From: Desulfobacteraceae bacterium
Lineage (GTDB): Bacteria; Desulfobacterota; Desulfobacteria; Desulfobacterales; JAABTS01
Assembly: GCA_011389735.1 (NCBI GenBank)
Contig: JAABTS010000055.1
Location: 1-34,016 of the forward strand
DNA length: 34,016 bases
Direction: 5' to 3'
Shown: positions 2,340-33,546 of the stretch, piece by piece
How positions within the stretch are numbered: position 1 is the first letter of the stretch
Layout of the letters: every line of letters begins with the position of its first letter
Translations under genes and position numbers: made by a program
Notes under the pieces: generated by a model
Told to the model about the DNA's origin: nothing
Seen by the model: only the letters and a program-made list of their open reading frames with translations
Databases searched by the model: none

Positions 2340-2341
2340 TT

Positions 2342-2447
2342 ATTGCCTTCCGGAAATTGAATTTTAACAGTGTTGTCGGCCCGGGATATACGAATAGCAT
2401 GTTCCCGGGCCTGCCGCCTTGTGAAATTGAATTCCTGAAAAACTATA
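2342..2447 (+). repeat. Family A palindromic repeat, copy A1
   Basis: A 106-bp imperfect palindrome fills the gap between the convergent thiolase and carB genes. Its core is a stem GGCCCGGGA / TCCCGGGCC around the loop TATACGAATAG, and its outer arms are AT-rich (CCGGAAATTG / GAAATTGAATTCC). Lying 2 bp after one stop and 10 bp before the other, it could act as a two-way terminator. This is inferred from the structure. Confidence 0.85.
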
Positions 2448-6976: not shown

Positions 6977-7237
6977 ACAGCCTTCCAGAAATCAAATGTC
7001 ACTGTTTTGTCGGAGCGGGATATACGAATAGTGTGATCCCGGGTCTGCCGATTTGTGAAATTCAATTTCTGAAAGGGCATCTTTCATAAATTCTGATAAA
7101 TAGTTTACACTTCTCAAATCGCTATCGAAATCGGCATCGGCATCGGCATCGGCATCGAATTATTACGATTTCGATCCCGATCCCGATTTTGATGAAACTG
7201 TAAACAAGAAATGAAGGATGCCTCTGAAAGCCTATAT
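6977..7237 (+). repeat. Family A repeat, copy A3, interrupted by element C1
   Basis: The left part runs from CAGCCTTCCAGAAATC through CGGGATATACGAATAG and ATCCCGG to TTCTGAAAG at 7075. The terminal TCTGAAAGCCTATATA resumes at 7223, after the 147-bp C1 insertion. The inner stem is CGGGAT / ATCCCG. It lies 70 bp after the ecfT stop and 33 bp from the stop of the convergent HD-GYP gene. Confidence 0.85.
7076..7222 (+). mobile_element. MITE-like element C1 with 12-bp terminal inverted repeats and 8-bp target duplication
   Basis: The 147-bp element begins GGCATCTTTCAT and ends ATGAAGGATGCC, which are inverted repeats with one mismatch. It is flanked by a perfect 8-bp direct duplication, TCTGAAAG, at 7068-7075 and 7223-7230, the mark of transposition. 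The inside holds AGTTTACAC and GTAAAC subterminal blocks, an ATCGGC hexamer array, a short AT-rich centre and a GATCCC array. It has no coding capacity, so it would need a transposase from elsewhere. A second copy (C2, 16349-16483) is in the opposite orientation. Confidence 0.88.
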
Positions 7238-12501: not shown

Positions 12502-12609
12502 ATAGCCTTCCGGAAATCAAATTTCACCTTGTTGTCGCCCCCCCGGATATCCGAATAGTGTGATCCCGGATTCGCCGACTTGTGAAGTTTAATTTCTGAA
12601 AACCTATAT
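12502..12609 (+). repeat. Family A palindromic repeat, copy A5
   Basis: It reads ATAGCCTTCCGGAAATC, then GTTGTCGCC...CCGGATATCCGAATAGTGTGATCCCGG, then CGCCGACTTGTGAAG and AATTTCTGAAAACCTATATT. It lies between the divergent acetyltransferase and the ABC operon, about 80 bp from the former. Together with the promoter below, it accounts for what is visible in this 356-bp gap. Confidence 0.85.
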
Positions 12610-16302: not shown

Positions 16303-16337
16303 CGCATACAGCCATCCGGAGTCTTCCCAAAACGAAT

Positions 16338-16586
16338 ATAGATTTTCAGGCATCCTTCATTTCTTGTTTACAGTTTCATCAAAATCGGGATCGTAATAAT
16401 TCGATACCGATGCCGATGCCGATCCCGATTTCGATACCGATTTGGGAAGTGTAAACTATTTATCAGCATTGATGAAAGACGCCGATTTTCAGATATTACA
16501 TTTCAGAAGGATAAAGGGAGGGGGTAATGGAAGTCGTATGCCTCCGACCGATAAGCCACTGAAATTTAATATCTGAAAGGCTATAA
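16338..16586 (+). repeat. Family B palindromic repeat, copy B1, interrupted by element C2
   Basis: The repeat starts ATAGATTTTCA at 16338, is broken by C2, and resumes at 16484 with GATTTTCAGATATTACATTTCAG. It continues through GGGAGGGGGTAATGG and CCTCCGACCGATAAG to TAATATCTGAAAGGCTATAA. Without the insertion it matches B2 (23324-23430) closely in length and sequence. Confidence 0.85.
16349..16483 (-). mobile_element. MITE-like element C2 with 8-bp target duplication
   Basis: The 135-bp element starts GGCATCCTTCAT and ends ATGAAAGACGCC, inverted repeats with two mismatches. It is flanked by the perfect 8-bp duplication GATTTTCA at 16341-16348 and 16484-16491. The body is the reverse complement of C1, with the same TTGTTTACAGTTTCATC and GTGTAAACTATTTATCAG blocks, but is 12 bp shorter; the hexamer arrays (GATGCC/GATCCC-type units) have fewer copies. 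It is noncoding. Confidence 0.88.
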
Positions 16587-23323: not shown

Positions 23324-23430
23324 TATAGATTTTCAGATATTACACTTCAGTAAGGATAGAGGGAGGAGATAATACAAGTGTATATCTCCGACCGATAACG
23401 CACTGCAATTTAATATCTGGAAGGCTATAA
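23324..23430 (+). repeat. Family B palindromic repeat, copy B2
   Basis: This 107-bp copy reads TATAGATTTTCAGATATTACACTTCAG, then GGGAGGAGATAATAC, then ATATCTCCGACCGATAACGCACTGCAATTTAATATCTGGAAGGCTATAA. It starts 26 bp after the chemoreceptor stop and ends directly before the AGGAAGG ribosome binding site of the next gene. It is the uninterrupted reference for B1. Confidence 0.88.
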
Positions 23431-23448: not shown

Positions 23449-24153
23449 TTGAAAACACATTTATTCTGGGGAATCACAGCTCTTATTTTAGCAGGATTGA
23501 CAGGCGTTGTTATCAATACGGCGGATAGGAGGCGCTATGGAGCGGCCATGTCGGAACAGGCGGATTTGTTTTCATCAATACTCGTAAAAGCGCAACATGC
23601 GGAAGATAAAAGCCTGTTTATGGAAAAACGCCTGTCTGAACTCGCTGTTTTTATTCAATCAAAGACAGAAGATGGAAAACGCCGGATCAACTCAAACGCC
23701 GAATTATCGAGGAACAGGCATGAAAAACTTCAGGACGTTCTAAGCGATTTGTATCAAAGCGGATGTTTTAACCCGGCGGCCGTCATGAAAGATAAGCTGA
23801 ACACGGATTTCAACCGGTTTCAAAATGCGGCCCGGGAAATGGAAACTTCTCATGAATCCTACTATAAATCGTATTCGGAAACCATAAACGCCTTGAAAAA
23901 AAATATCGCCCGGTTGCAAAACGAAGTACGGGCGAACCTCAAAGCCTACCAGGCCATGTTAAAAGAGATACGAGATTTTATCAGCATGCCTGTGGATCTG
24001 GATTTTGATCCACAGCCCGACATCGAAAATTTGAATAAAAAAATTGGGGATGCTGAAAATCTGCTGAAAAAATTGTCCGCTATGAACAAGGAATTGAACG
24101 CCTTGAAAAAAGGGAAGAATCTGCCGGAACGTAACATTGACATGGCGTTATAG
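23449..24153 (+). CDS. Membrane-anchored coiled-coil protein of unknown function
   Basis: The protein is 234 residues from a TTG start at 23449, with AGGAAGGA (23431-23438) 10 nt upstream. A single N-terminal hydrophobic helix (about 5-23, FWGITALILAGLTGVVIN) is followed by a basic stretch (DRRRYG). The rest is strongly helical and charged, with probable coiled coils at about 45-90, 120-180 and 190-230 and a proline-aspartate break (MPVDLDFDPQPD). The charge pattern does not decide topology; the basic residues after the helix favour the C-terminal part being cytoplasmic. It resembles no family I can name. Its place behind cheA and the receptor suggests an accessory structural or sensing role. 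The stop codon TAG is part of the terminal TATAG of repeat B3, so the C-terminus may have been altered by that insertion. Confidence 0.7.
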   Translation: MKTHLFWGITALILAGLTGVVINTADRRRYGAAMSEQADLFSSILVKAQHAEDKSLFMEKRLSELAVFIQSKTEDGKRRINSNAELSRNRHEKLQDVLSDLYQSGCFNPAAVMKDKLNTDFNRFQNAAREMETSHESYYKSYSETINALKKNIARLQNEVRANLKAYQAMLKEIRDFISMPVDLDFDPQPDIENLNKKIGDAENLLKKLSAMNKELNALKKGKNLPERNIDMAL

Positions 24154-24252
24154 CCTTTCAGATATTAATTTCAGTGCGTTATCGGTCGGATATACGATTG
24201 TATTATCTCCCCCTCCATCCTTCTGAAATGTAATATCTGAAAACCTATATTA
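24148..24252 (-). repeat. Family B palindromic repeat, copy B3 (inverted)
   Basis: On the plus strand it reads TTATAGCCTTTCAGATATTAATTTCAG, then GCGTTATCGGTCGGATATACGATTG, then ATCTCCCCCTCCATCC, ending TAATATCTGAAAACCTATATT. It is the reverse complement of B1 and B2. It fills the gap between the convergent coiled-coil and giant-kinase genes and supplies the stop codon of the former. Confidence 0.88.
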
Positions 24253-33287: not shown

Positions 33288-33546
33288 TTTACTGTGAAAT
33301 TCATTTTATGTTATGGAGTGGTCGTTTCAGATCATGATTGTTATTAATTCTCTCACGGAGGCACGGAGGCACGGAGGCACGGAGTTTTTTCTCTGTGCCT
33401 CTGTGCCTCTGTGCCTCTGTGCCTCTGTGCCTCTGTGCCTCTGTGCCTTTGTGAGAAATATTTAACCCTTGGCAAAAGACTCAACCCGTTTACTGTGAAA
33501 CTCATTTCATGATACGGGGTGATCGTTTCCGATCATGTTCGTTATT
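33288..33546 (+). repeat. Pair of 58-bp direct repeats flanking an octamer array
   Basis: Positions 33288-33345 and 33489-33546 are about 49/58 identical: both start TTTACTGTGAAA, contain GATCATG and end GTTATT. They are 143 bp apart and enclose the octamer inverted array. No gene lies here. They could be duplicated target or element ends, or separate copies of a short interspersed repeat. Confidence 0.75.
33354..33454. repeat. Inverted array of octamer repeats
   Basis: The left arm has four tandem CACGGAGG units (last one truncated), followed by a TTTTTT spacer. The right arm has seven tandem CTCTGTGC units plus one variant, CTTTGTGA. The arms are complementary in register except for one position per unit, which in RNA would be a G-U pair, so a transcript of either strand could fold into a long hairpin. 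The unequal unit numbers suggest slippage. Confidence 0.85.

Follow-up and report, generated by a model that had tools for sequence, protein, structure and literature searches.

The window analysed here, a stretch of 34,016 nucleotides from the draft genome (6.5 Mb) of a Desulfobacteraceae bacterium, contains two interspersed repeats, one of family A and one of family B, that are split at nearly the same place by copies of one small element, designated C. This raises the question of whether C prefers the ends of such repeats or was found there twice by chance. Copy C2 (16349..16483, + strand, 135 bp) displays the ends GGCATCCTTCATTTCTTGTTTACAG...ATTGATGAAAGACGCC and a hexamer (GATNCC/ATCGGG) hairpin core, and is bordered on the same strand by 8-bp target duplications, GATTTTCA, at 16341..16348 (positions 5-12 of the A/B profile) and 16484..16491. 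Removal of C2 and of one duplication from its host, repeat B1 (16337..16585, + strand, profile 1-106), restored a full 106-bp A/B repeat (positions 1-106 of 106, on a profile built from the repeats of the window). The duplication-flanked insertion that a sequence-only reading had placed in the left end of B1 was thereby found to be precise, 5 bases into a full-length repeat and with GATTTTCA on both sides. Copy C1 (7076..7222, - strand, 147 bp) splits an A repeat (6979..7236, - strand) between duplications at 7068..7075 and 7223..7230, both on the - strand, the duplicated sequence being TCTGAAAG on the + strand and CTTTCAGA in the frame of the repeat. On the profile, the duplications start at position 5 for C2 and position 7 for C1, in agreement with the distance of about 2 bp given in that reading, and two of the nine full-size A/B repeats of the window were indeed interrupted by C. 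The opposite orientations ascribed to the two copies are true of window coordinates only: the host repeats are themselves inverted, and relative to them C1 and C2 share one orientation, with the left end of C towards the outer TATA end. Intact repeats of the window include the B repeats at 23324..23429 (+ strand, used as empty-site comparison) and 24149..24249 (- strand), and the A repeats at 2341..2447 and 12502..12608 (both on the - strand). The window also encodes, just upstream of C2 (15895-16302), a free-standing protein with the archaea-specific threonyl-tRNA synthetase editing domain (PF08915, E 9e-37) in what is apparently a bacterial genome, and carries at 33383-33461 an 8-bp tandem repeat, CTCTGTGC, of about 9 units.

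The left-end motif of C had 109 matches in the genome of the window, against 4 for a reversed control, and approximately 115 loci were examined by eye. About 100 non-coding copies were recognized, mostly 103-177 bp long. Many of them lay at contig ends; C seems to break the assembly, so that these copy counts are lower bounds. Among the 73 copies for which both ends were found, some end calls being weak (L067, L036), 41 were flanked by an exact 8-bp duplication, a further 12 by a duplication with one base different, and 57 copies were retained as well delimited (duplication mismatch of at most 1 nt). The duplications were AT-rich. Both termini consist of GGCATCYTTCAT as terminal inverted repeats, to which an internal GTTTACA motif is added, the extended ends being GGCATCCTTCATTTCTTGTTTACAGTTT on the left and ...GTGTAAACTATTTATCAGCATTTATGAAAGATGCC on the right. 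Lengths fell on a single 6-bp ladder for 60 of the 73 copies, owing to a core built of arrayed GATNCC-type hexamers with TAATAATT at its centre. An origin of C by capture of an independent hexamer repeat was considered and rejected: the core had 15 matches beyond the left-end list, and 13 of these were accompanied by at least one recognizable C end, which indicates that the core is part of the element. Longer loci with a left end only were likewise discarded as autonomous copies, being truncated or chimeric C instead. Comparison with Rfam gave no match at gathering score. C is a MITE (miniature inverted-repeat transposable element): it is short, non-coding and multi-copy, with terminal inverted repeats, a target site duplication and ends in common with an autonomous element found elsewhere. 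A second family with the same termini and another subterminal sequence (GGCATCCTTCATCTGTCAGTTTACACTTTGAAA...) was observed in this genome at L044, L073, L076, L084 and L097; these loci include chimeras of the two families, the halves of which were apparently exchanged at the common hexamer array.

Twelve of the 57 well-delimited copies were inserted at A/B ends, and 15 anywhere within A/B repeats. Inside these repeats, 12 of the 15 insertions started no more than 7 nt from the repeat end (p ~2e-8), most commonly at position 5, and the A/B-end insertions favoured one direction by 10 to 2. A/B-end sites, a class suggested by the data themselves, represented 1.4% of a sample of some 32,000 non-coding positions, taken from the surroundings of C copies rather than from the whole genome, so that 0.8 insertions were expected against the 12 observed (15-fold, p 2e-11). 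The excess over chance proposed from the two copies of the window was thus recovered genome-wide, 12 of 57 against 0.8-1.8 expected, the higher value being that obtained after weighting for the target motif.

This weighting bears on what is, among the alternatives, the one that survives best, although we regard it as rather doubtful: C would have no true preference for repeats and would merely enter AT-rich intergenic DNA with a T-run, where A/B ends are abundant and alike. The targets of C are AT-rich with a T-run. For the target motif, the score of A/B ends is 2.5 times the mean of non-coding positions, and A/B repeats are dense (approximately 340-370 per Mb in the sample). With a motif profile trained exclusively on the 42 insertions that lie outside A/B repeats, the top-scoring site of the intact B repeat at 23324 was GATTTTCA at position 5, indicating that the motif partly explains target choice; in A repeats the end was not the best-scoring site. 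However, motif weighting raised the expectation at A/B ends to 1.8 only, against 12 observed (6.7-fold, p 1.7e-7), and its upper bootstrap limit to 2.9 (p 2e-5), leaving a 4-7-fold excess after correction. A second, unlikely explanation is that insertion is random and that copies survive only where they are harmless, for instance in interspersed repeats. The largely intergenic location of C, as judged by the flanks of its copies, and the presence of several copies in CACGAAA palindromes and in a second repeat family are compatible with such safe havens, but survival alone would account neither for the position of 12 of the 15 A/B-internal copies, no more than 7 nt from an end (p 2e-8), nor for the 10:2 bias in orientation. 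Finally, joint spreading of C and its host repeat as a composite, one insertion being copied many times, is very improbable: several insertions do share an identical duplication, such as GCTTTTCA in L018 and L235, but the host repeats are of different subfamilies and have different flanks, the duplications are diverse (GATTTTCA, CTTTCAGA, GTTTTCAG, GGTTTTCA, CAGGTTTC, TGAAAATG), insertion positions vary by 1-4 nt and no extended identical flanks surrounded the nested pairs at the flank lengths examined.

The bias of C for A/B ends is therefore real, but it concerns a minority of copies and is partly driven by the motif. Strict A/B specificity was not observed, with only 12 of 57 copies there. 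The preference for the repeat end put forward in the sequence-only reading holds as a statistical bias (p ~2e-7 after motif weighting) and fails as site specificity: tabulation of copies, duplications and repeat positions did reveal clustering at A/B ends, but about 79% of the copies lay elsewhere with other AT-rich duplications, a distribution which, taken literally, that reading had named as contrary to its proposal. Other recurrent targets were a CACGAAA-type palindrome (about 9 copies) and a further repeat (4 copies), with common insertion points in each, which shows that repeat use by C is broader than A/B. Loci of these two families were L019, L025, L028, L038, L039, L043, L050 and L084 on the one hand, and L006, L007, L051 and L098 on the other.

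The ends of C were searched for as the pattern GGCRTCYTTCATN{4,7}GTTTACA in 389 genomes of the order, together with a reversed control. The pattern was present in 48 genomes, with none for the control, and reached 125 matches per genome outside the genome of the window; an exact-pattern scan of named genomes for the C left end gave 0 matches, that pattern being too strict. Elements with C ends in other genomes were 101-364 bp long with unrelated, often palindromic interiors, and 30 of the 47 two-ended elements examined had an exact 8-bp duplication. This association of identical ends with unrelated palindromic interiors (L114, L116, L127, L165 and L170, among others) gives the impression that different sequences were captured repeatedly by a single pair of ends. 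Among the first elements examined, two were long, L154 (1923 bp) and L163 (1951 bp), both with exact duplications.

L154, from Desulfonema magnum 4be13, encodes a protein of 533 aa, and the corresponding frame of L163 is frameshifted. Four copies of the D. magnum element were identical over the 533 residues, three of them with exact duplications. In all, 1.9-kb elements with C-type ends and exact 8-bp duplications, the transposase gene lying between the ends, were found in D. magnum, in Desulfobacterales HSG2 and in Synechococcus SynAce01. A scan of named genomes found relatives of this transposase in HSG2, Desulfococcaceae HSG8, one member of the Methylococcaceae, a gammaproteobacterial MAG, SynAce01 and an ANME-2 archaeon; none was found in viral contigs. 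Within the order, the transposase was detected at E <= 1e-10 in 11 genomes, 9 of which belong to the 48 with C-type ends (Fisher p 1.5e-7, a value that shared ancestry may inflate, related genomes not being independent).

No Pfam or NCBIfam model reached its cut-off with this transposase of about 530 aa, and no sequence match was found in the PDB. Conserved residues comprise D164/E165, D218 and D239xxH242, as well as E455 in all rows covering that position; D164, D218, D239xxH242 and E455 would be compatible with a DDE enzyme that contains a long helical insertion. The AlphaFold model (mean pLDDT 58) was too poor for a test of the fold. With transposases of the IS256/Mutator type, there was a weak similarity in the region of the second catalytic Asp (E 0.001-0.08), and the DxxH following it is shared; scores stayed below cut-offs (18.2 bits against 150 for NF033543, 17.4 against 21 for PF00872). 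Family ISL3 also produces 8-bp duplications and has GG ends. It was rejected as parent family: DDE_Tnp_ISL3 (PF01610) had no match in the genome of the window, and its best score with the C-type transposase was 17.1 bits (E 0.0049) for a cut-off of 23. An IS66-like gene beside L097 was also set aside as parent, since its position is external to the element and its ends, as judged by eye, are of another type. No transposase of the C-type family was found in the assembly of the window's genome. C consequently appears to be an orphan there, unless its parent falls in an assembly gap, and the activity of the transposase on C is deduced from the ends alone.

On these grounds, we consider it likely that C is a non-autonomous MITE with ends that serve as recognition sites for a DDE-like transposase family outside Pfam and NCBIfam, and for which the A/B end is a warm spot with a residual excess. 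The transposase would most likely recognize GGCATCYTTCAT and GTTTACA(CTTT), the latter located 5-6 nt inward at one end and about 15 nt at the other, and the element would be joined to an 8-bp staggered cut in AT-rich, non-coding DNA with a T-run, generating the 8-bp duplication. The A/B end (TATAGNTTTTCAGA) would act as a warm spot because it offers a good target match in a defined orientation and many times per genome. Local DNA shape, hairpin structure or a target motif longer than our profile may account for the residual 4-7-fold excess. Autonomous 1.9-kb elements would have survived in D. magnum and others and not in the present assembly, C being presumably cross-mobilized by transposases of this type, for which catalysis is predicted. 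A broader proposal can be offered tentatively, as it is somewhat less probable than its negation: a new IS family, with kin among DUF6399 proteins and distributed across Desulfobacterota, Cyanobacteria, Gammaproteobacteria and ANME archaea, would mobilize hundreds of MITEs whose hairpin interiors are almost arbitrary, and would actively recognize the ends of other interspersed repeats as targets.

Insertion of ISs and MITEs into repeats is an established behaviour, and the earlier statement that no described element behaves in this way was wrong in kind. ISPsy8, ISPa11, ISPpu9, ISPpu10, ISRm22 and ISRm19 show specificity or bias for REP palindromes (Tobes and Pareja 2006, PMC1525189). Like C, these are mobile elements that strongly favour insertion into an abundant extragenic palindromic repeat, but they are autonomous and called REP-specific, whereas C is non-coding, only about one in five of its delimited copies lies at an A/B end, and its ends belong to a transposase outside Pfam and NCBIfam. 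In pneumococci, the small intergenic repeats BOX, RUP and SPRITE are nested in one another, for which common site preference or tolerance have been raised as explanations (Croucher et al. 2011, PMC3049150; review PMC10969869); small size, interspersion and nesting are common to these repeats and C, while sequences and hosts differ. The BrickBuilt MITE of Porphyromonas gingivalis (PMC4596501) contains an internal tandem repeat as C does, but with a 23-nt unit and other ends, the unit of C being 6 nt long and arranged as a hairpin. The literature yielded no paper on Desulfonema MITEs and none printing GGCATCCTTCAT as an element end. The transposase family, the MITE system and the measured bias thus appear undescribed, a novelty that is provisional, ISfinder lying outside the sources covered. 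More notable than the target bias is the family of transposases with its spread of MITEs, as very common small intergenic repeats of sulfate reducers (ends pattern matched up to 125 times per genome) are linked to a transposase outside curated families; the bias itself is a measured example of a repeat family that serves as a landing site for another. With four identical autonomous copies in the cultured D. magnum, the system is testable.

The genome of the window also encodes a DUF6399 protein (PF19936, annotated as of unknown function) on contig C333 (L182:562-2175, - strand). It was rejected as the transposase of C, since no GGCATC ends surround the gene, this copy being devoid of GGCATCCTTCAT ends. 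In Pfam, PF19936 was not matched by the C-type transposases. The protein nevertheless gave a full-length profile match to their family (hhalign 95%, 435 columns, 24% identity), which suggests that DUF6399 proteins, for which a likely kinship is thereby gained, are transposases or derived from transposases.
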